DNA of 49,339 nt from Dehalococcoidia bacterium (lineage in GTDB: Bacteria; Chloroflexota; Dehalococcoidia; DSTF01; JACRBR01): positions 32,772 to 82,110 of the forward strand of contig JBBDXD010000023.1 of NCBI GenBank assembly GCA_040902535.1. The letters are read 5' to 3'. Below the pieces are notes generated by a model. That model made no database searches, was not told the DNA's origin, and saw only the letters and a program-made list of their open reading frames with translations. The first letter of the stretch is position 1, and the number at the start of each line of letters is the position of its first letter. A program made the translations under genes and the position numbers. Of this stretch, positions 38,907 to 48,745 are shown in pieces.

Positions 38907-38983
38907 CCCAGGGTAGCCAAGTGGCCTAAGGCAACGGTCTGTAACACCGTGTATCGCTGGTTCGAATCCAGCCCCTGGGACCA
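38907..38983 (+). tRNA. tRNA-Tyr (anticodon GTA), class I shape, CCA encoded
   Basis: Cloverleaf: acceptor CCCAGGG / CCCTGGG, D stem GCC / GGC, anticodon stem ACGGT / ACCGT with loop CTGTAAC (anticodon GTA), variable loop GTATC (5 bases), T stem GCTGG / CCAGC with loop TTCGAAT, discriminator A and encoded CCA. The anticodon gives Tyr. The short variable loop and C1-G72 pair differ from the usual bacterial tRNA-Tyr, which has a long variable arm and G1-C72. It is the likely attachment site of the integrated element to the right. Confidence 0.9.
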
Positions 38984-39978: not shown

Positions 39979-41097
39979 TCATCCTAGCAGGGCATCGAAC
40001 GCATCCGCGGCCTGCCGCTGCATCGTGGGCGTGACGTGCGAGTACAGATCGAGCGTCGTGCTGATGCGCGTGTGGCCGAGCATCTCCTGCACGATCTTCG
40101 CGTGGATGCCCTGTTCGAGCAGGAGCGTCGCGGCGCTGTGGCGGAGGTCGTGGAAGCGCATACGGGGCAGCCCGGCGTTCTTGAGCAGCGGCTCGAATGA
40201 CCGCTTGAGCAGGTTGCCTGCGGCGATCGGCTTGCCGACCTCGTTCGCGAACACGAGCTCGTTGTCTTCCCACGCGGCGCCGATGCGAAGCCGCTCCTCC
40301 TTCTGCGCGACCCGATGCCGGCGGATCGCCTCGACGGTCCGGGCCGGCAGAAGCACATGGCGTCGCGAGCCTCGCGTCTTGGTCTCAGCGAATCGCAGCC
40401 CATCCTTGGTCGCCTGCATCGTCCCGCGGATCTGGATGCTGGCTCGGTCGAGGTCGACATCCTTCCAACGCAGCCCGAGCAGTTCACCTTGCCGCATGCC
40501 AGTCGTCAGGGCCATGACGTACAGCGCTTCCAGACGACTCCCCTCCGCAGCGGCCAGTAGCGCGGATGCCTGGCGAGCGGAGAGCGTAGTGATCTCGTAG
40601 TGGCCGACCCTTGGCGCGTCCACGAAGTCGGCGACGTTGCGCTGCACGAGGTTCCAGCGCACGGCCTGCTTCAAGGCTCGGTGAAGCATCGCGTGGAGGT
40701 GATGGACTGTGGTCGATGACAGCCGCTCTTCAATCTTCTTCGAGTAAAGGCGCTGGAGGTGGAGCGGGGTGAGGTTCGTCAGCTGGACCTTGCCGATCTC
40801 CGGCGTGACGTGTAGCCGCACGAGCTGCTCGTAGCGGTCCCACGTCCGGACGCGGAGAGATGGCTTCGATGCGTTGAGCCACCGTTGCATGAACTGCGCC
40901 ACGGTCTGACGTTCACTGATGACCGGCAGCCCGTCGTCCTGTCCCTTGAGCGCGGCGCGGAGCTTGCGGGCGACCTCGTCGCGATCCTTGTTCAAGAAGT
41001 GCTTTCGATCACCGCTCGGCAGACTGATCGACGCCGACCACCGACCGTCGCTCTTGCGGAAGTAAATCGAGCCTTCGCCATTCGCTCGTTTAGCCAT
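39979..41097 (-). CDS. int: Phage-type tyrosine recombinase/integrase
   Basis: 372-residue integrase. N-terminal AP2-like/arm-binding strand region (GEGSIYFRKSDGRWSASISL), SAM-like core-binding domain (QTVAQFMQRWLNASKPSLRV) and the catalytic domain with Arg in TTGMRQGELLGL, HDLRHSAAT, LGHTRISTTLDLY (His and the nucleophile Tyr). All catalytic residues are present. It probably integrates the element into the tRNA-Tyr gene. ATG 41097 overlaps the end of the upstream gene by 8 bp, so both are co-transcribed from the divergent region at 42227-42317. Confidence 0.95.
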   Translation of the reverse strand: MAKRANGEGSIYFRKSDGRWSASISLPSGDRKHFLNKDRDEVARKLRAALKGQDDGLPVISERQTVAQFMQRWLNASKPSLRVRTWDRYEQLVRLHVTPEIGKVQLTNLTPLHLQRLYSKKIEERLSSTTVHHLHAMLHRALKQAVRWNLVQRNVADFVDAPRVGHYEITTLSARQASALLAAAEGSRLEALYVMALTTGMRQGELLGLRWKDVDLDRASIQIRGTMQATKDGLRFAETKTRGSRRHVLLPARTVEAIRRHRVAQKEERLRIGAAWEDNELVFANEVGKPIAAGNLLKRSFEPLLKNAGLPRMRFHDLRHSAATLLLEQGIHAKIVQEMLGHTRISTTLDLYSHVTPTMQRQAADAFDALLG

Positions 41098-42226
41098 GCT
41101 GATTCTCCAGTCTCTGTAGAAATGACGTGTAGTCGGGGAACATGATGAACCGCAGCGCACTCCAATAGTCACGCGCGAAGTTGCGCACGTTCTTATAGGT
41201 CCAGGCCGGATAGCGAGCGTTCCATTCATCCATGAGCACACGCCAGCTTGGTATCTCCAGGTTTTCATCGGTCTCCGACGTGACTAGTCGGAAAAGTGCG
41301 AGCCGGCGCGCGCTAATTGGGCGATTTTCTCTACCCAGGAATCGTCGCTGCGCCTTCTTGTACATTGCAGCGACACTTGCCGCAGAGACCCACGGTTCGA
41401 TCTGCAACTCGATTTGGCCGGAGTTGGCAAAGCTGCTCCACTTAATGGTGGAATTAGACTGCATCGGGACCGTGCGGGGCCGCTCACCGGTCAGGACAAA
41501 CCAAGTTGCATCACCCTTCTGCCATGGCAGAGGCTGAAGCGTTGTTGCTGTTCGACGTAGCCGGTCGAGCACCGATCCGTTGAACACCGTCGTCTCGTGC
41601 CGCATGCCCTTGAGACGAAACTCGAGGACGTAGTTTCCCGGCATCCCTTCCCAGAACGTTCCTACATCCTTCAGAAGATGCTCGAATTCAACCTGGACAT
41701 TCGGTGGACTGATGCTCAACACCGCGCAATATCTCTCGCCGCGGACGTAATCTTGCGATAGCACCTCGCTGTCGTGGACGAGCGGGATGCCATGCCGCTC
41801 GAACTCGACTGGTGTGAGCATGCGCGCAGCGCTGGAGTTCAATAGGCCCCTGGCATCCTGCTCACTGAGAAGGTGCCCTCCGAGGACATCGTGTCGAAAC
41901 GCGCGCACCTCAGGCAGGCTCGCCGCGTATTTGGCGTAGTACTCGGACATCGCCAGAGCGCGCTCCGATTCATACGCCGAAAGTGCTGGCTTCTGCGACG
42001 CCTCACCGCTGCGAACGACGCGAGCGCGGCGGTGTTGCATGGACTTCGACGAAAAGACTTGGAGGAGCCGCGCGGCGCGGCGCGCGAGATCATCGCGTCC
42101 GTTGTCATCGCTGACGTTCAGGAAACCGTCATCCCGGAGCAGGGACCATACGGCATCCGGGACGTCGCGCCCGAGCTTTTCGCCTACCCAACTGCGCAGT
42201 TCGCTCTCGTCCAAAACCGTCCTCAT
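41090..42226 (-). CDS. Unknown element protein co-transcribed with the integrase
   Basis: 378 residues, start ATG 42226 (GGTGG upstream; ATG 42241 is also possible). Soluble, no signal peptide. The N-terminal 60 residues resemble a small helical domain (ELRSWVGEKLGRDVPDAVWS). The middle is mixed alpha/beta (CAVLSISPPNVQVEFEHLLK). The C-terminal part (WRVLMDEWNARYPAWTYKNV, then RNFARDYWSALRFIMF) has a W..WN..YP..TY...RNF.RDYW pattern. I do not know a named family. Its position next to int suggests a role in integration control, immunity or defence. Less GC-rich than the host genes. Confidence 0.75.
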   Translation of the reverse strand: MRTVLDESELRSWVGEKLGRDVPDAVWSLLRDDGFLNVSDDNGRDDLARRAARLLQVFSSKSMQHRRARVVRSGEASQKPALSAYESERALAMSEYYAKYAASLPEVRAFRHDVLGGHLLSEQDARGLLNSSAARMLTPVEFERHGIPLVHDSEVLSQDYVRGERYCAVLSISPPNVQVEFEHLLKDVGTFWEGMPGNYVLEFRLKGMRHETTVFNGSVLDRLRRTATTLQPLPWQKGDATWFVLTGERPRTVPMQSNSTIKWSSFANSGQIELQIEPWVSAASVAAMYKKAQRRFLGRENRPISARRLALFRLVTSETDENLEIPSWRVLMDEWNARYPAWTYKNVRNFARDYWSALRFIMFPDYTSFLQRLENQHG

Positions 42227-42317: not shown

Positions 42318-42515
42318 ATGGAAGAACGGCTTCTACTTACCGTCAAGGAGGCGGCGCAGCGTTTGGCGCTGGGACGCTCTGCGACATACGCCCTGATCCA
42401 GCGCGGCACGCTCCCCTCCTTGAAGGTCGGCGGTTCCCGAAGAGTGGCGGTGGCCGACCTCGTGGAGTTTGTCGAGCGGCTGCGATCTGAAATCCGGAGC
42501 GACGAGGGCGCGTGA
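42318..42515 (+). CDS. Excisionase-like helix-turn-helix protein
   Basis: 65 residues of the MerR-like/excisionase DNA-binding family (HTH_17): LLTVKEAAQRLALGRSATYA, then LIQRGTLPSLKVGGSRRVAV, then a helix. This is a complete single winged-helix domain. It is divergent from int and directly upstream of the primase; the stop overlaps the next start (TGATG). Likely roles are excision directionality factor or early-gene regulator. Confidence 0.88.
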   Translation: MEERLLLTVKEAAQRLALGRSATYALIQRGTLPSLKVGGSRRVAVADLVEFVERLRSEIRSDEGA

Positions 42516-44749
42516 TGGCTGACCAGGAACGTGAGATCATCGCCGCGATTGAAGAGGCCATTGCGTCGAGGCAACCGCGGCGCGAAGGGCGCGAGACCCG
42601 TTTCCTGTGCCCAGCCCACGACGACCACTCGCCCTCGGCACGCTGGCATCCCGAGAAGCACGTATGGTGCTGCGACGCCTGTGGCGCGGGCGGAGGGTAC
42701 GTCAACCTTGCCGAATTGCTCGGCGTTCCGCACTCACAACGCGGCGGACTATCGGTTGCGGAGCTCGCCGACGCCAAGGGACTCTCGGAGAAGTTCCTCC
42801 GCGATCTCGGTGTCACGGACGGCATCGTCGGCGCCAGCCGGACTCCATGCGTGGACATCCCCTACGACGACCGCACCGGCGAAGTGATCGCGGTCCGAAA
42901 GCGTCTCAACCTCAAGGGCGAGCATCGTTTCTCGTGGAGACGCGGCGACCATCCCTACCCCTACGGCCTGTGGGCAGTGCGGGAAGCACGCGAGCGCACG
43001 AACTACCTCCTCTTTGTTGAGGGAGAGTCCGACACGTGGGTCTGCAAGCGGGCAGGCGTGACCGCCGTCGGGATTCCCGGCGCTTCCACCATGAAGACGG
43101 ACTGGGCGCCTCTGTTCGAGGGAATCCCGCATCTGTTCGTCTGGCAGGAGCCAGGACCCGCTGGCATCACGTTCGTGGAAAAGGTCGCCGCGGCACTCCC
43201 CACGGTCCAGGTCATCACCGCCCCCGTCGACGCCAAGGACGCGGCAGACCTGTGGCTCGTCTGCAACCGTGATGCCGACGAGTTCCAGGCCCGCATCGCT
43301 GAACTCGCTCGGAGCGCGCCATATGTGTCCGCGATCAAGGCCGACACCTCACGACAGGACGCCAGGGAGTCGCTCGCCAAGGCGTGGGATCTGTTTCTCG
43401 CGCCGGATCTTCTTGCGAAGGTCGAGACCGCCATGCGCGACTTGGGCTACGCCGGCGACACCAAGCCTCCGATGCTCGCGTACGTCGCGCTCACATCGCG
43501 GCTCCTTCGTCGGCCGCTCAACCTCGCGTTCGTCGCACCGTCGGCGGCGGGGAAGAATCGTGCCATCGATGCTGCCTTAGCGTTGATGCCGGAGTCCGCC
43601 TACTACCTGGAGAAGGCCGGCTCCGCCCGCGCGCTCATCTACAGCGACGCCTCCTACGAGCACCGCGCTGTCGTCGTTGCGGAGGCCGACTCGTTGCCCA
43701 ACGACGACAGTTCCGCCGCATCGGCGGTTCGGTCACTCGCGGCCGACAACGAAATGACCTACGACGTCGTCGAGAAGGACAGCAAGGGTGAGTTTCATGT
43801 CCGGCGCATCACAAAGCCCGGACCCACCGGGCTCGTCACGACCTCCACGCGGCCGCTTCCGCACCAGTTCGACACCCGCACCCTGACCGTCACCGTTGCC
43901 GACACACCGGGACAGACGCGCGACGTCATGCGGGCTCACGCCGCGACGTTGAACGGTCTTGTTGCCCTGCCGGATGTCTCCGACTTCGTCGCTCTGCAGC
44001 GATGGCTGGAACTCGAAGGAAAGCGCGAGGTGCTTGTGCCATTCGCGCCGGCGCTCGCCGAACTGGTTCCCGCAGATCACGTTCGGATGCGGCGTGACTT
44101 CCGCCAGCTCCTCACCACAGTCGAGACGATGGCCATTCTGCACCAGCAGCAGCGTGAACTGGACGCAGACGGACGGATCGTAGCCACGCTGGACGATTAC
44201 GAACATGCGCGGACGCTTCTGATGGACGTCTTCCAGGCGGCGTCCAGCGCCGGCGTCACGCCCCAGGTTCGTGAGACGGTCGAGGCCGTGAACCGCATCG
44301 CCGACGGCGTGTCCCTGACAAAACAGGCCATCGCGGACGCACTCAAGCTTTCAAAGGACACGGCGTGGTACCGCATCAAGCGCGCAATCTCGCTCGGCCA
44401 CCTCATTAATGATGAAACGCGGAAGGGGAGGCCAGCCCAGATCCGCCCCGGAGACCCGCTGCCGGAGGATCGCCCTGCGCTTCCCACCGTCGAGGAGTTG
44501 TCTGCGTGTGTGTCACGGCACCCCGCAGTCGATTCAACCGTTCAACCGCGCCGGACCCTCGAAGCGGAAGGCGAATCTGGAAAGGTGGTTGAATCCGTGG
44601 TTGAAAGCGGCATTCAACCGCACGTTCAACCTGACCGCGCACCCGCGCCAGATTCACCTGCTCGGACTGCCGTCGCCGTGGTTGAACGGTTGAACGGCGA
44701 TCCCGGGAGTCTACACACACCTGACGGTCGCGAGGTGATGGAGATATGA
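42515..44749 (+). CDS. Phage/plasmid-type primase-helicase (CHC2 zinc finger, TOPRIM, ATPase)
   Basis: 744 residues. A DnaG-type zinc-binding domain at the N-terminus uses Cys32, His35, Cys53 and Cys56 (CPAHDDHSPS and CCDACGAGGG). A TOPRIM-like domain follows (about 165-255; LLFVEGESDTWVC, then VKDAADLW-like text as DAKDAADLWL). An ATPase domain has a Walker A-like VAPSAAGKNRAID (about 340-352) and an acidic Walker B VVVAEADS (about 384-391). Near the C-terminus SLTKQAIADALKLSKDTAWY is a helix-turn-helix, then a Pro-rich tail. It should prime and perhaps unwind element DNA during replication. ATG 42515 overlaps the HTH gene stop. Confidence 0.85.
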   Translation: MADQEREIIAAIEEAIASRQPRREGRETRFLCPAHDDHSPSARWHPEKHVWCCDACGAGGGYVNLAELLGVPHSQRGGLSVAELADAKGLSEKFLRDLGVTDGIVGASRTPCVDIPYDDRTGEVIAVRKRLNLKGEHRFSWRRGDHPYPYGLWAVREARERTNYLLFVEGESDTWVCKRAGVTAVGIPGASTMKTDWAPLFEGIPHLFVWQEPGPAGITFVEKVAAALPTVQVITAPVDAKDAADLWLVCNRDADEFQARIAELARSAPYVSAIKADTSRQDARESLAKAWDLFLAPDLLAKVETAMRDLGYAGDTKPPMLAYVALTSRLLRRPLNLAFVAPSAAGKNRAIDAALALMPESAYYLEKAGSARALIYSDASYEHRAVVVAEADSLPNDDSSAASAVRSLAADNEMTYDVVEKDSKGEFHVRRITKPGPTGLVTTSTRPLPHQFDTRTLTVTVADTPGQTRDVMRAHAATLNGLVALPDVSDFVALQRWLELEGKREVLVPFAPALAELVPADHVRMRRDFRQLLTTVETMAILHQQQRELDADGRIVATLDDYEHARTLLMDVFQAASSAGVTPQVRETVEAVNRIADGVSLTKQAIADALKLSKDTAWYRIKRAISLGHLINDETRKGRPAQIRPGDPLPEDRPALPTVEELSACVSRHPAVDSTVQPRRTLEAEGESGKVVESVVESGIQPHVQPDRAPAPDSPARTAVAVVERLNGDPGSLHTPDGREVMEI

Positions 44750-45321
44750 GCGCCACCTCGCTGGTGCGAAGTCTTGAGCGAAGAGGCGTGCGGCTTCAGG
44801 CGGTGGACGACCGTCTGGTAGTGGACGCGCCCCGCGGCGTGCTGACCGACGACGTCAAAGAGGAGTTGCGCGCGCAAAAGTCGGAAGTGCTACGGATCGT
44901 GCGCGAGGGACGGCCCTTGGCCGAACTGGCCGCGGACCGGCTTCCGAGCATCCGCTTCACGATCCGCGAAACCGGCGACACGGAACGGGACTTCGACCTC
45001 ATTGGCCGCGTTCGCCAGGTGATCGAGGAGTTCCAGCCCGGGGGCAACCACATCTACCTGACCATCGTCACCCTCGACCAGCGGCGCGTCGTGGTTGAGT
45101 GGCGCGCAGTCGCCGATCGCGAGCTGCGGCTTGGAATCGGCCACGTCCTCGCGCGTGGCGGCTGCGTGTGCGTGGCCACATTAGACCTGGGGGGTGTCGG
45201 TGAAGCCCGGAGCGAAGCCTCTGCCGACAAACGTGAAGCGGCTGCGGGGCACGCTGCGCAAGCACCGGATGCGCGGCGACGAACCCGACGTCGTCTCGGA
45301 CATCCCGACGTGCCCGCGTGA
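44746..45321 (+). CDS. TubC-like docking-domain protein of the element
   Basis: 191 residues starting in ATGA overlap with the primase gene. Residues about 5-50 (LVRSLERRGVRLQAVDDRLV, then VLTDDVKEELRAQKSEVLRI) match the TubC N-terminal docking domain known from hybrid polyketide/peptide synthases and also found in mobile elements beside primases. The middle (IRFTIRETGDTERDFDLIGR) is a separate small domain. The last ~40 residues are basic, low-complexity and overlap the next gene by 128 bp, so the true end may be shortened by a sequencing frameshift. Likely a protein-interaction adaptor for the replication apparatus. Confidence 0.7.
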   Translation: MSATSLVRSLERRGVRLQAVDDRLVVDAPRGVLTDDVKEELRAQKSEVLRIVREGRPLAELAADRLPSIRFTIRETGDTERDFDLIGRVRQVIEEFQPGGNHIYLTIVTLDQRRVVVEWRAVADRELRLGIGHVLARGGCVCVATLDLGGVGEARSEASADKREAAAGHAAQAPDARRRTRRRLGHPDVPA

Positions 45322-45691
45322 ACTGAGCAAGACGGCGAAGCGCGAATGGCGCCGCATCGCGCCGGAACTGGCGCAACTGGGGCTGCTCGCCCGCATCGAC
45401 CGCGCCGCGCTCGCGCTCTATTGCGATGCGTGGGCACGCTGGTGCGAAGCCCAGCAAGCGCTCCAGAAGTACGGCGTTGTCGTGAAGTCGCCGAACGGCT
45501 TCCCGATGCAGAGCCCGTACCTGGCGATCGCGAACAAGGCGCTCGACCAGATGCGCCTGTTGCTTGGGGAGTTCGGCATGTCGCCGTCGAGCCGCACGCG
45601 CGTGAGCGCCGTGCCACAGGTGGAGGAGGACGAGTTCAGCGAGTTCGAGCGGCACCGGGACCGACGGGCGAGCGGGGGCACCCTGATTTGA
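45194..45691 (+). CDS. Phage terminase small subunit, P27 family
   Basis: 165 residues. Sequence KPLPTNVKRLRGTLRKHRMR near the N-terminus, CPRELSKTAKREWRRIAPEL and WARWCEAQQALQKYGVVVKS, then NKALDQMRLLLGEFGMSPSS, is the typical layout of the P27/phi105 small terminase family, which recognises phage DNA for packaging. The GTG start (45194, or 45200) lies after a G-rich stretch. A large terminase gene is not immediately downstream as usual; the ParB-methyltransferase comes first. Confidence 0.88.
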   Translation: MSVKPGAKPLPTNVKRLRGTLRKHRMRGDEPDVVSDIPTCPRELSKTAKREWRRIAPELAQLGLLARIDRAALALYCDAWARWCEAQQALQKYGVVVKSPNGFPMQSPYLAIANKALDQMRLLLGEFGMSPSSRTRVSAVPQVEEDEFSEFERHRDRRASGGTLI

Positions 45692-45829
45692 AGTCAAAAC
45701 GATCGCGAACGCGCAGCGCTCTGCTACCGCGGCTGCGCGCCGGCATCCGCCATGAGCGGCCTGCCGACCCGAACGAACAGACCACGCGACGGTGGGCTTC
45801 GAGGAGTACAAGCGGAGCTTGGAGGTTTG

Positions 45830-47065
45830 ATGAAGACAGAAACGCGGATGCAGATCGCGCACGTCCCGATCGACGACCTGAAGCCCGACCCCGCGAACCC
45901 GCGCCGGATCTCCGACGACGAGCTGGAGGCGTTGACGCGCAGCCTCCGCGAGTACGGCTTCGTGCAGCCGGTGCTGGCGCGGCGGGAGGACATGACGGTG
46001 ATCGGCGGCCACCAGCGCCTCACCGCCGCCCGGCGTCTGGGCATGAAGGACGTGCCGGTGATCTTCCTCGACGTTACGCAGGAGCAGGCGCGCGTCCTCA
46101 ACCTCGCGCTCAACAAGATCAGCGGGGCCTGGGATGAGGAGCTGCTGGCGCGGATGGTCGCCGACCTCTCGTCGATCGAGGCTGTCGACCTGAGCCTCTC
46201 GGGCTTCGACGAAGACGAGCTGGACGCGCTGCTCAAGAGCCTGGACGTGCGCGAGCGGCGCGAGAAGCCCGAGGCCTTCGACGTGGACGCGGCGCTGGAG
46301 GCGGCACGTGCCGCGACACGCGCCAAGCCGGGCGAGCTGTGGGCGTTGGGCGACCACCGGCTCCTGGTGGGCGACGCGGGCGACACGGCGGCCGTACAGC
46401 GGCTCCTCGACGGCAAGCGGGCGCCGATGTGCTTCACCGACCCGCCCTACAACGTCGCGCTCGGCGACCACGGCGGCCAGCAGCGCGGGCAGAAGAAGAG
46501 ACGCATCCAGAACGACGCCATGCCGAACGAGCAGTGGGAGACGTTCTGCCGCGGTTGGACGCGCAACCTCCTCGCCAGCGTGGACGGTGCGATCTACTGC
46601 TGCATGTCGTCGAAGGAACTGCCGCTCGTCTCGCGCGTGCTCGAAGAGGAGGGCGGGCACTGGTCCGACACGATCATCTGGCGCAAGGATCGCTTCACGC
46701 TCGGCCGCGCCGACTACCAGCGACAGTACGAACCACTCTGGTACGGCTGGCGCGAGGGCGCCAAGCACCAGTGGCACGGCGGCCGCGACCAGGGCGACGT
46801 GTGGGACGTCGAGCGCCCGTCCGAAAGCGCAGCACATCCGACCATGAAGCCCCTGCCGTTGATCGAACGCGCGATGGAGAACTCGTCCTCACGCGGCGAC
46901 GTCGTGCTCGACCTGTTCCTCGGATCGGGTAGCACGATCATCGCCTGCGAGCGCACAGGACGCGTCTGCTACGGCACGGAACTTGACCCGCACTATGCGA
47001 GCGTAGTGATCGCCAGGTGGGAAGCGTTCAGCGGCAGGGAGGCGCAGTGCCTCAGCCGTTCGTGA
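45830..47065 (+). CDS. ParB-like nuclease domain fused to a DNA methyltransferase
   Basis: 411 residues. Residues about 8-95 form a ParB N-terminal-like domain (HVPIDDLKPDPANPRR, VQPVLARREDMTVIGGHQRL with the GxHR-type motif). A helical bridge follows. Residues about 185-405 are an amino-methyltransferase with the catalytic DPPYN (about 203-207) first and the AdoMet loop DLFLGSGST (about 362-370) last, i.e. beta-class order. It probably methylates adenine-N6 or cytosine-N4 in element DNA, perhaps against host restriction. ATG 45830 has GGAGG four bases upstream. Confidence 0.9.
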   Translation: MKTETRMQIAHVPIDDLKPDPANPRRISDDELEALTRSLREYGFVQPVLARREDMTVIGGHQRLTAARRLGMKDVPVIFLDVTQEQARVLNLALNKISGAWDEELLARMVADLSSIEAVDLSLSGFDEDELDALLKSLDVRERREKPEAFDVDAALEAARAATRAKPGELWALGDHRLLVGDAGDTAAVQRLLDGKRAPMCFTDPPYNVALGDHGGQQRGQKKRRIQNDAMPNEQWETFCRGWTRNLLASVDGAIYCCMSSKELPLVSRVLEEEGGHWSDTIIWRKDRFTLGRADYQRQYEPLWYGWREGAKHQWHGGRDQGDVWDVERPSESAAHPTMKPLPLIERAMENSSSRGDVVLDLFLGSGSTIIACERTGRVCYGTELDPHYASVVIARWEAFSGREAQCLSRS

Positions 47066-47532
47066 TCACGAAGGACGGACGGGGCGCGCAGATGCACGTG
47101 CGGCGGCGAGACACGGGTGAGTGCATCGGCTGCATCGAGGCCGGCCTCTACGAAGTCGTGCGCGCGGTGATCGAGGAAGAGGTAGCGGCCCCGACCGAAG
47201 AGGGCATCCAGGTCGGGGCCGCTAGGAAGGCGATGGTAGTGAGTCGTTGGGTCTATTCCTCGTCCTCCTCGCCGTCAAGCGACCGCAGTTCCTGCTCGAT
47301 GATGTCGCGCTCGAACTGTCCGAGCCAGCCGCCGCCGCGACCCTCGAACGCGGCGAGGCAGTACGCGTTGATGCGAGTGTTGCCGATGGCGCGCAGGAGC
47401 ACGGCGATCTCGTCCATCTTTTCCAGTACCCCTTCGAGGACGTCGCGTGTGTCGTCGTCGTTCATGGTCGCTCCTTTCGCGGAGCCATACATCACTCTGT
47501 GCGGAAACGAAGTCAACGGAGTCCAGAGATGA
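47047..47532 (+). CDS. Small hypothetical protein, 3' part doubtful
   Basis: The GTG start overlaps the end of the methyltransferase gene. The first ~60 residues look natural (VPQPFVITKDGRGAQMHVRR, CIGCIEAGLYEVVRAVIEEE). After about 47240 the frame becomes Ser-rich and lies antisense to the small gene at 47253-47465. A 14-bp perfect hairpin at 47183-47224 interrupts the end of the natural part. The real protein may end near there after a frameshift. Function unknown. Confidence 0.4.
   Translation: MPQPFVITKDGRGAQMHVRRRDTGECIGCIEAGLYEVVRAVIEEEVAAPTEEGIQVGAARKAMVVSRWVYSSSSSPSSDRSSCSMMSRSNCPSQPPPRPSNAARQYALMRVLPMARRSTAISSIFSSTPSRTSRVSSSFMVAPFAEPYITLCGNEVNGVQR
47183..47224. repeat. 14-bp perfect inverted repeat TAGCGGCCCCGACC ... 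GGTCGGGGCCGCTA
   Basis: Very GC-rich 14-bp stem with a 14-base loop, between the methyltransferase gene and the convergent minus-strand gene. No T-run. It may be a bidirectional terminator or a protein/DNA-processing site. Confidence 0.7.
47253..47465 (-). CDS. Small acidic element protein
   Basis: 70 residues: MNDDDTRDVLEGVLEKMDEI at the start, then INAYCLAAFEGRGGGWLGQF and an acidic end (DGEEDEE). AGGAG lies five bases before ATG 47465. It is driven by the left one of two divergent, nearly identical promoters (47488-47516). It has the size and charge of small phage regulators or anti-restriction/DNA-mimic proteins, but no family is recognised. Confidence 0.6.
   Translation of the reverse strand: MNDDDTRDVLEGVLEKMDEIAVLLRAIGNTRINAYCLAAFEGRGGGWLGQFERDIIEQELRSLDGEEDEE
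47488..47516 (-). promoter_or_regulatory. Promoter of the small acidic gene (left copy)
   Basis: On the minus strand: TTGACT, 17-base spacer, GATGTA. It lies in one arm of an inverted duplication whose other arm carries the right promoter. The shared stretch continues to the ribosome binding site (GCGAAAGGAGC). Confidence 0.6.
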
Positions 47533-47576: not shown

Positions 47577-47605
47577 TTGACTTCGTCGCGGAGCGGAGCG
47601 ATGTA
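47577..47605 (+). promoter_or_regulatory. Promoter of the RAMA/zinc-finger gene (right copy)
   Basis: TTGACT, 17-base spacer, GATGTA, within CCGTTGACTTCGT (47574-47586) that is the exact reverse complement of 47507-47519. It drives the gene starting at 47659, which has the same GCGAAAGGAGC ribosome binding site as the left gene. Confidence 0.6.
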
Positions 47606-47658
47606 TGCGCTCGCCAACGAAGGTGCCCCTGGCGAGGGCGAGCGAAAGGAGCGGCGAG

Positions 47659-48123
47659 ATGCCGATCGAGAACAGGACCTTGGAAGCGGGGACGCGCCTC
47701 GTGGCGCGTCACAAAGGGAAGGAGTTCGTCTGCGAGGTCGTGCAGACGGACGAGGGGCTGCGGTACCGGGTGGACGGGAAGGACTTCAACAGCCCGTCGT
47801 CGGCGGGCCGCGAGGTGACGGGCGGCGTCGCGGTCAACGGCTGGCGCTTTTGGTCGCTCGAAGGGACGCTCAAGGAGCGGGCGCCGAAGGCCGCGAAGGA
47901 GCGCAAGCCCAAGATCGACAAGCCGGCGAAGAAGACGGCGAAGACCAAGAGCGCCAAGACCGTGAAGCCGAGGGCCAAGAAGGGCGCGAAGAAGGGAGCC
48001 AAGAAGGCCACGAAGAAGGCGGCACAGACGGCGAGCCACGATTCGTACGGGTGCGGCGTCTGCCCCGAGACGTTCCCGACGCTGAAGGCCGCGACCAAGC
48101 ACGCAATGACGCACACGCAGTAA
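47659..48123 (+). CDS. RAMA-like domain, histone-H1-like tail and C2H2 zinc finger fusion
   Basis: 154 residues. Residues about 7-72 (LEAGTRLVARHKGKEFVCEV, then DGKDFNSPSSAGREVTGGVA and GWRFW) match the RAMA/DUF2924-like domain linked to DNA modification systems. Residues about 76-128 are a Lys/Ala/Thr-rich tail with KKGAKKGAKKATKKA, as in bacterial H1-like and HU-tail proteins. Residues about 131-153 form YGCGVC...F...H...H with spacing C-x2-C-x12-H-x3-H, the classical (eukaryote-type) C2H2 zinc finger. AGGAG lies upstream of the ATG. It may bind and perhaps sense modified element DNA. I know of no named protein with this exact order. Confidence 0.8.
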   Translation: MPIENRTLEAGTRLVARHKGKEFVCEVVQTDEGLRYRVDGKDFNSPSSAGREVTGGVAVNGWRFWSLEGTLKERAPKAAKERKPKIDKPAKKTAKTKSAKTVKPRAKKGAKKGAKKATKKAAQTASHDSYGCGVCPETFPTLKAATKHAMTHTQ

Positions 48124-48353
48124 CCCGCCTCCAGAACGACGCGCTCCTTGCGGGGCGTGTCGCTCTCTCTCCTGCGATCGCGGCGCTGCCGCCGCGCATC
48201 GCGTACCGCCGCGAAGTAGCGCTATCGACGCAGGAAGACGAGCGCATCCCGCTCGCACTCATCGACGCGATCATCGCCGACGCGGGACCGTCACTATCGC
48301 TGGATAGCCACCGACTACCAGAGCGCGAGCCTAGCAGAGGTAGCGAATGGTAG
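48051..48353 (+). CDS. Possible small overlapping gene
   Basis: A frame that starts at GTG 48051 inside the preceding gene and ends in an overlap with the next start (ATGGTAG). The part after 48124 looks protein-like (LQNDALLAGRVALSPAIAAL, then EDERIPLALIDAIIADAGPS), but no good start codon or ribosome binding site supports it. Otherwise the 48124-48346 spacer would be empty. Confidence 0.25.
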   Translation: MRRLPRDVPDAEGRDQARNDAHAVTRLQNDALLAGRVALSPAIAALPPRIAYRREVALSTQEDERIPLALIDAIIADAGPSLSLDSHRLPEREPSRGSEW

Positions 48354-48745
48354 GGTCGCGCGCCTGTTCCGCCCCTACCAAGAACGGCGAAGCCTGCAGC
48401 GCGACGCCCATGCACGACAGCCCGTTCTGCTTCTGGCACTCGCCGGAGCACGTCGAGGAGGCGGCGAAGGCGCGGAGCCTCGGCGGCCAGCGACGGCGGC
48501 GGGAGTCCACGCTCGTGGGCGCCTACCACATGGAGCCCCTCGACACGGTGAGGGGCGTCCGGCGCGTCCTGGAGATCGCGACCTTTGATGCCCTGGGCAT
48601 GGAGCAGTCCGCCAACCGCATCCGGCTGTTGATCTCGGCGGCGACCGTCGCCGGCCGGCTCCTGCAGGCGGCCGACCTGGAGCAACAGGTGAAGGAGATC
48701 CTGGCGATCCTCAAACCCCGCGACCAGCGGAAGGGACGCCGGTGA
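48347..48745 (+). CDS. Phage protein with Cys/His zinc-ribbon-like N-terminus
   Basis: 132 residues. The N-terminus has CSAPTKNGEACSATPMHDSP followed by FCFWHSPEH, a Cys-Cys-Cys-His set common in small actinophage and Chloroflexi phage proteins encoded near terminase genes. It is followed by a helical region (TVRGVRRVLEIATFDALGME, NRIRLLISAATVAGRLLQAA) similar to DNA-binding small subunits. The stop overlaps the next start (GTGA). Perhaps a packaging or replication accessory factor. Confidence 0.75.
   Translation: MVGSRACSAPTKNGEACSATPMHDSPFCFWHSPEHVEEAAKARSLGGQRRRRESTLVGAYHMEPLDTVRGVRRVLEIATFDALGMEQSANRIRLLISAATVAGRLLQAADLEQQVKEILAILKPRDQRKGRR

Follow-up and report, generated by a model that had tools for sequence, protein, structure and literature searches.

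The RAMA-Zn protein, encoded in a satellite-like integrated element of a Dehalococcoidia bacterium, is a new combination of known domains: a RAMA domain, a Lys/Ala-rich tail and a C2H2 zinc finger. Its gene begins 593 bp downstream of the end of a ParB-methyltransferase (ParB-MTase) gene in the 49,339-nucleotide stretch of DNA that was analysed (the window; Table 1). We tentatively favour a reading in which RAMA-Zn is a DNA-binding accessory protein of the element, functionally tied to this adjacent enzyme. Most likely, we infer, it binds the DNA backbone and either assists ParB-MTase in trans or acts on DNA that ParB-MTase has methylated. DNA binding is suggested by the residues of the RAMA domain, while cooperation with the enzyme, and its direction, is suggested by the gene neighbourhood. 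A search of the literature found no paper on a RAMA protein that stands alone, carries a zinc module and is encoded next to a ParB-methyltransferase.

The coordinates, strand and frame of the open reading frame (ORF; 154 codons and a stop) were all verified, and an RBS-like AAAGGAGCGGCGAG stands immediately 5' of the ATG. AlphaFold predicts confident folds at both ends of the protein, with a pLDDT of ~95 for the RAMA domain and ~90 for the finger. The initial annotation had proposed the order RAMA-like domain, basic tail and C2H2 finger, an arrangement borne out by Pfam, AlphaFold and the alignment of relatives. Structure prediction for residues 1-72 and 128-154 accordingly covers two confidently predicted folds, the second of them a zinc-finger fold. 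A frameshift origin of the tail, also considered, is ruled out by its conserved frame, a GC3 of 0.96 and a Lys/Ala-rich composition in 7/7 C2H2 members. As for known phage proteins, tblastn against 50,697 phage records gave no match; likewise, a PHROGs search with the protein returned no significant match and a BFVD structure search with its model none at E<=0.001.

Table 1. Features of the element in the window, with the basis for each assignment.
Feature	Position	Strand	Basis
tRNA-Tyr(gta), likely integration target	38907..38983	+	related element on G003:C20 also beside tRNA-Tyr and integrase
Tyrosine integrase, presumed left end of element	39979..41268	-	Phage_integrase E=7e-30
Primase/helicase-like protein, CHC2 zinc ribbon	42512..44749	+	profile matches
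ORF with TubC_N docking domain, between primase and terS	44746-45321	+	Pfam E=9e-13
Phage terminase small subunit (terS)	45194..45691	+	Terminase_4 E=1e-30; phrog_83
ParB_N and beta-class DNA methyltransferase (ParB-MTase), 437 aa, no RAMA of its own	45752..47065	+	ParB_N, N6_N4_Mtase; DPPY then FLGSG
Divergent 70-aa acidic ORF	47253..47465	-	65% identical relative adjoining the RAMA-Zn gene in locus L022; no family match
Second box copy, before divergent ORF	47486..47516	-	pattern search
Conserved box TTGACTTC-N11-GAGCGATGTATG, upstream of RAMA-Zn gene	47577..47607	+	pattern search, alignment
RAMA - Lys/Ala tail - C2H2 zinc finger protein (RAMA-Zn), 154 aa	47659..48123	+	ORF, Pfam, alignment, AlphaFold
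RAMA domain, residues 1-72; predicted phosphate-contact residues S45, S47, N60, W62	47659..47874	+	Pfam RAMA; CcrM/MPND fold; residues compared with PMC6787082
Lys/Ala-rich predicted disordered linker, residues 73-128, net charge ~+18 to +20	47875..48042	+	low pLDDT over most of it; composition
C2H2 finger, residues 129-154 (C132, C135, F139, H148, H152)	48043..48120	+	pattern, AlphaFold, PDB profile matches
Conserved element ORF after RAMA-Zn gene	48347..48745	+	syntenic in many loci
Conserved element ORF, open at contig end	48742..49338	+	synteny in related loci

The N-terminal domain is a true Pfam RAMA match rather than merely RAMA-like, and RAMA is a domain tied to DNA adenine methylation. 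PF18755 matches it with E=1.9e-8 and 34.6 bits against a cut-off of 35.2, and a genome search that included neighbours gave 35.3 bits, over the cut-off; among the 14 control genomes of that search only Caulobacter was positive. DUF2924 matches residues 4-67 (E=8e-7). Foldseek alone found no PDB match at E<=0.001, and CcrM and MPND surfaced only when the model was compared structurally with the best Foldseek chains. In that re-ranking the top three entries were CcrM (6pbd, Z 6.6) and MPND (7ydw, Z 6.5; 7ydt, Z 6.2), with 62-64 residues aligned at an rmsd of 2.6-2.9, and the next unrelated chain followed at Z 5.0. Moderate as these Z values are, the top ranks go to the RAMA structures that the literature describes, and the sequence agrees with the fold assignment.

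The RAMA domain of CcrM, an adenine methyltransferase of the beta class, contacts DNA phosphates via S315, H317, N330, W332 and R350, and as one subunit methylates, the domain of the other grips the non-target strand (PMC6787082). The W332A variant is inactive and S315A loses DNA binding (PMC6787082). Four of these five contacts recur in RAMA-Zn, where S45, S47, N60 and W62 are the counterparts of S315, H317, N330 and W332 at identical +2/+15/+17 spacing, and W65 stands at the position of CcrM W335. The fifth, R350, and its Asp partner (Asp347) have no counterpart, the chain of RAMA-Zn running on into the tail at that point. Among 30 aligned members of the family S47 and W62 are invariant and S45 and N60 are conserved in at least 90%; the full set of invariant RAMA positions across the family is G11, S47, A49, A58, G61, W62, F64 and W65. 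MPND contacts DNA through S113, S115 and W135 (PMC9963953).

The adjacent enzyme, a ParB-methyltransferase as the initial annotation had it, has its motifs in the order typical of the beta class, and no RAMA domain follows at its C-terminus. The accessory-protein reading stems from this RAMA-less beta-class neighbour together with contact residues at CcrM spacing. The RAMA domain would grip the DNA backbone through S45, S47, N60 and W62, while the flexible basic tail and zinc module may strengthen binding, act as a tether or contact a protein. Strand-holding could be supplied in trans, by a separate RAMA protein, to a beta-class enzyme without RAMA, which is conceivable since the RAMA domain of CcrM works across the dimer; alternatively, RAMA-Zn may sit on DNA that ParB-MTase has methylated. 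M.HhaII, with the same target as CcrM but without a RAMA-type domain, shows no strand separation, whereas M.HinfI, which has the domain, acts like CcrM (PMC10359602). A split CcrM-type system can be envisaged in which a ParB beta-class methyltransferase works with a separate strand-gripping RAMA protein, recruited to DNA or to its partner by an exchangeable zinc module (C2H2, CCCH or C2HC), and we consider it unlikely in so specific a form.

In 25 of 30 family loci the RAMA-Zn gene has a ParB-MTase gene nearby, and three of the five exceptions have less than 2.2 kb of upstream DNA. The proximity holds even where the enzyme sits on the other strand or is only ~30% identical. When viral-contig loci were instead chosen by the enzyme, a RAMA gene was nearby in only 1 of 80, suggesting that ParB-MTase is not generally in need of a RAMA protein; the dependence of RAMA-Zn on ParB-MTase thus appears to be one-sided. 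No ParB-MTase/RAMA fusion of the Rosetta-stone kind was present in ~140 enzyme-bearing loci. The accessory reading is favoured by the RAMA fold, its contact residues, the RAMA-less beta-class neighbour and the recurrent proximity, while the missing fusion, the rarity of RAMA in the viral loci, the missing R350 counterpart, a separate upstream box for the RAMA-Zn gene and a zinc module that is freely lost or swapped count against it. The pairing could also be inherited synteny within Dehalococcoidia elements, as the family is largely confined to one host class and gene order may reflect common ancestry.

Acting on methylated DNA could take the form of reading it: RAMA-Zn would bind sites marked by ParB-MTase and so regulate, protect or mark adenine-methylated element DNA. 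Work cited in PMC9963953 and PMC11037411 named RAMA for a predicted role as a 6mA-associated reader and reported that MPND senses 6mA, and a RAMA gene that is nearly always near ParB-MTase, when the enzyme is often without a RAMA gene, has a reader-like direction of dependence. However, both solved RAMA-DNA structures, those of CcrM and MPND, have contacts to the phosphate backbone only (PMC9963953, PMC6787082). MPND bound 6mA and unmodified DNA alike, and a preference for 6mA is disputed even for this protein (PMC9963953). The partner methyltransferases of the family are also very diverse and point to no common mark. The suggestion in the initial annotation that the protein reads modified DNA is accordingly not established for RAMA, and we regard a reader as rather unlikely.

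The C-terminal finger follows the pattern C132-x2-C135-x12-H148-x3-H152, with the core aromatic F139 present. Fingers of the Ros/MucR type have x9 spacing between the Cys pair and the His pair, and the eukaryotic-type x12 spacing claimed at the outset is indeed present in the sequence. The predicted fold is a bba finger (hairpin 130-139, helix 142-149), although Ala145 replaces the usual Leu before the first His and the Pfam zf-C2H2 match is marginal (E=0.045; 14.7 bits against a cut-off of 25.2). The predicted finger is thus a variant C2H2, not a textbook one. The profile of the RAMA-Zn family has PDB matches to C2H2 fingers, both natural and designed, with a best E=8.6e-5. The strict pattern has a chance rate of ~1 per million residues; six-frame segments totalling 1.1 million residues contained it five times, and four of these occurrences belong to the RAMA-Zn family. 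Both F139 and the four predicted zinc ligands are kept in 7/7 full-length C2H2 members, one being the window protein and the other six coming from three further genomes of its Dehalococcoidia family. Pooled pN/pS is 0.43 for the RAMA domain, 0.78 for the tail and 0.91 for the finger (25 codons with low pS); by these counts the finger, taken as a unit, does not appear to be under purifying selection, and the ligands are nevertheless invariant. Zinc binding is predicted from the sequence and the model.

The tail of the window protein is 35% Lys and 23% Ala with a net charge of ~+20, and it is Lys/Ala-rich and basic in all seven C2H2 members. Such a Lys/Ala-rich basic C-terminal tail is a feature of linker histone H1, and to that extent the initial description as H1-like stands for the window protein and the C2H2 lineage. 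It does not extend to the whole family, across which linkers vary from 15 to 91 residues and from -9 to +23 in net charge. Nucleoid-type compaction, in which the tail would condense element or host DNA and the folded ends merely anchor it, would fit this composition. However, the relatives without C2H2 keep RAMA, and usually a zinc module, on short, neutral or acidic linkers (-9 to +9), so compaction is not a function the family shares. There is also no H1 globular winged-helix domain among Pfam matches up to E=10, the folded part being RAMA. Compaction as the core function is accordingly very unlikely, and the silencing of host DNA, which had been raised alongside it, found no support in the analysis; like compaction, it would depend on a tail that the relatives lack.

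Relatives were sought in species-representative genomes, in viral contigs and in 393 genomes of the class, yielding ~30 distinct close relatives. Where the genome record is named, it is a MAG of Dehalococcoidia or Chloroflexota; in the class search 31 of the 393 genomes were positive at E<=1e-4, the weaker ones as RAMA-only matches. Across the wider family RAMA is kept while the C-terminal module is C2H2, CCCH ribbon-like, C2HC-like (loci L029 and L036) or absent. The C2H2 form (C-x2-C-x12-H-x3-H) was found in the bacterial family of the window. In the CCCH module (C-x2-C-...-C-P-x-G-H), modelled as a ribbon-like beta-hairpin, the C, C, F, C, P and H residues are invariant in 14/14. A tree on 74 RAMA columns groups the six other C2H2 members (98/98) and leaves the placement of the window RAMA unsupported, and the C2H2 form may have had one origin or two, both being possible.

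Several further copies were seen in individual genomes. One related genome (G003) carries four RAMA-Zn copies at different places (contigs C3, C15, C20 and C43), that on C43 with a frameshift ahead of the finger. In the genome of the window itself (G000) a truncated copy at C3:199963-200097 is 87% identical over its end and is followed by DNA 76% identical to the window, a methyltransferase 85% identical lies at C6:696-1955 near a contig end, and a partial one, 71% identical, at C1:99778-100452. These three sites are further or partial copies of the element. The same genome has another RAMA domain (C22:9465-9746, locus L093) near the C-terminus of a 347-residue ORF whose N-terminal part, we presume, resembles type I restriction R-subunit N-terminal domains. 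A separate protein (locus L082, G017:C24) combines a weak RAMA-like start without the NGWxFW motif, a Lys/Pro-rich tail and a C2H2 finger (zf-C2H2 E=0.0015).

The RAMA-Zn gene and the divergent 70-residue ORF have a common intergenic region in which each is preceded by a copy of a box of ~30 bp. In the family the box takes the form TTGACTTC-N11-GAG(T/C)GA, ending in GAGTGA or GAGCGA, and 30 of 31 loci have it upstream of the RAMA-Zn start, 28 of them at a distance of 53-82 nt. At least 12 positions are invariant in 26 aligned sites, some of them fixed by the search pattern itself. The whole 3.18 Mb genome has two sites only, both in the divergent intergenic region of the window, and 0.98 Mb of control loci has three, two again before RAMA-Zn genes. 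As the RAMA-Zn gene has its own upstream box, co-expression with the methyltransferase is not required. The presence of the GAGTGA form before the gene in nearly all family loci, and its flanking of the divergent ORF, would suit a transcription regulator, perhaps one that acts on its own promoter through the box. Searching viral contigs for the box alone, however, found it before RAMA-Zn genes and also before unrelated mobile-element genes of other phages and integrative elements, often near ParB-MTase. Serine recombinases and a phage family annotated as amidoligase (phrog_2443) are among these unrelated genes, and the box is thus not specific to RAMA-Zn. Since RAMA is not known for reading sequence and a single finger is rarely specific, a regulator is improbable in our view. 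The box may be a promoter or operator that mobile elements of several host groups have in common. In viral contigs of other hosts (L158:5001-7111, L261, L262 and L266) the phrog_2443 gene fills the slot after ParB-MTase, with the box.

In the window the gene order is integrase (on the reverse strand), primase/helicase, terS, ParB-MTase, RAMA-Zn, two ORFs and the contig end. TubC_N, found in the ORF before terS, is a docking domain named after biosynthetic megasynthases. Its genes give the element the appearance of a satellite of the integrase-primase-terS kind, sited at tRNA-Tyr. In the related element on G003:C20, which also lies beside tRNA-Tyr and an integrase, host genes begin after ~15 kb; an exact repeat of the tRNA-Tyr end that could serve as right attachment site was not found there. 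Among the larger ORFs of this element and of that on G003:C15 there was no capsid, portal or large-terminase match. The initial annotation spoke of phage DNA; with no capsid or large-terminase gene seen in two related elements, satellite-like integrated element is probably the better label. Phage-inducible chromosomal islands (PICIs) have an integrase, a primase or replication gene and terS but no capsid genes (PMC6092414). The window element has integrase, primase and terS but runs off the contig end, the check for virion genes being on the larger genes of the two related elements, and it additionally carries the ParB-MTase and RAMA-Zn genes.

This setting raises the possibility of a packaging factor that, with terS and the methyltransferase, would pick out the DNA of the element to be encapsidated by a helper phage. 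The order terS, methyltransferase, RAMA-Zn is kept in several loci of elements with terS, and no capsid or terL genes were detected in the two related elements. However, fewer loci yielded a terS match than a methyltransferase match, neither a pac site nor a contact is known and some members sit in large viral contigs. A role in packaging is hence quite doubtful.

Compared with known systems, RAMA-Zn is closest to the C-terminal RAMA of CcrM and M.HinfI, with the same fold (63 residues aligned to 6pbd at 24% identity), four of five phosphate contacts and an association with a beta-class methyltransferase, but it is encoded separately rather than fused and has an extra basic tail and zinc finger in addition to missing the Arg350/Asp347 pair. 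MPND of animals has the same RAMA fold and Ser-x-Ser and Trp DNA contacts (PMC9963953), but its sequence is far diverged and it has acidic flanks and an MPN protease-like domain and no zinc finger. The DUF2924/RAMA proteins of prophages and transposons, e.g. in Wolbachia (PMC11342252), are likewise small, stand-alone RAMA-related proteins of mobile elements, though their RAMA-like part is C-terminal whereas RAMA-Zn has RAMA first and the zinc module last. AFV1p06 is likewise a single classical C2H2 finger protein in a virus-type prokaryotic element, but it is archaeal, has no RAMA and uses Glu as one ligand (PMC3541406). Ros/MucR proteins also have C2H2 ligands in a bacterial protein, from which RAMA-Zn differs by its x12-x3 spacing and by having a small bba finger only.

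If RAMA-Zn binds DNA merely non-specifically, it would be a modest addition to the known RAMA proteins of mobile elements. It also stands as a clear bacterial example of a mobile-element protein with a C2H2 finger of eukaryotic type, in a slot that related elements fill with other zinc modules. In CcrM the role of RAMA is inseparable from the enzyme itself; if RAMA-Zn and ParB-MTase cooperate, the role of RAMA in strand separation would become testable by adding or omitting one small protein.
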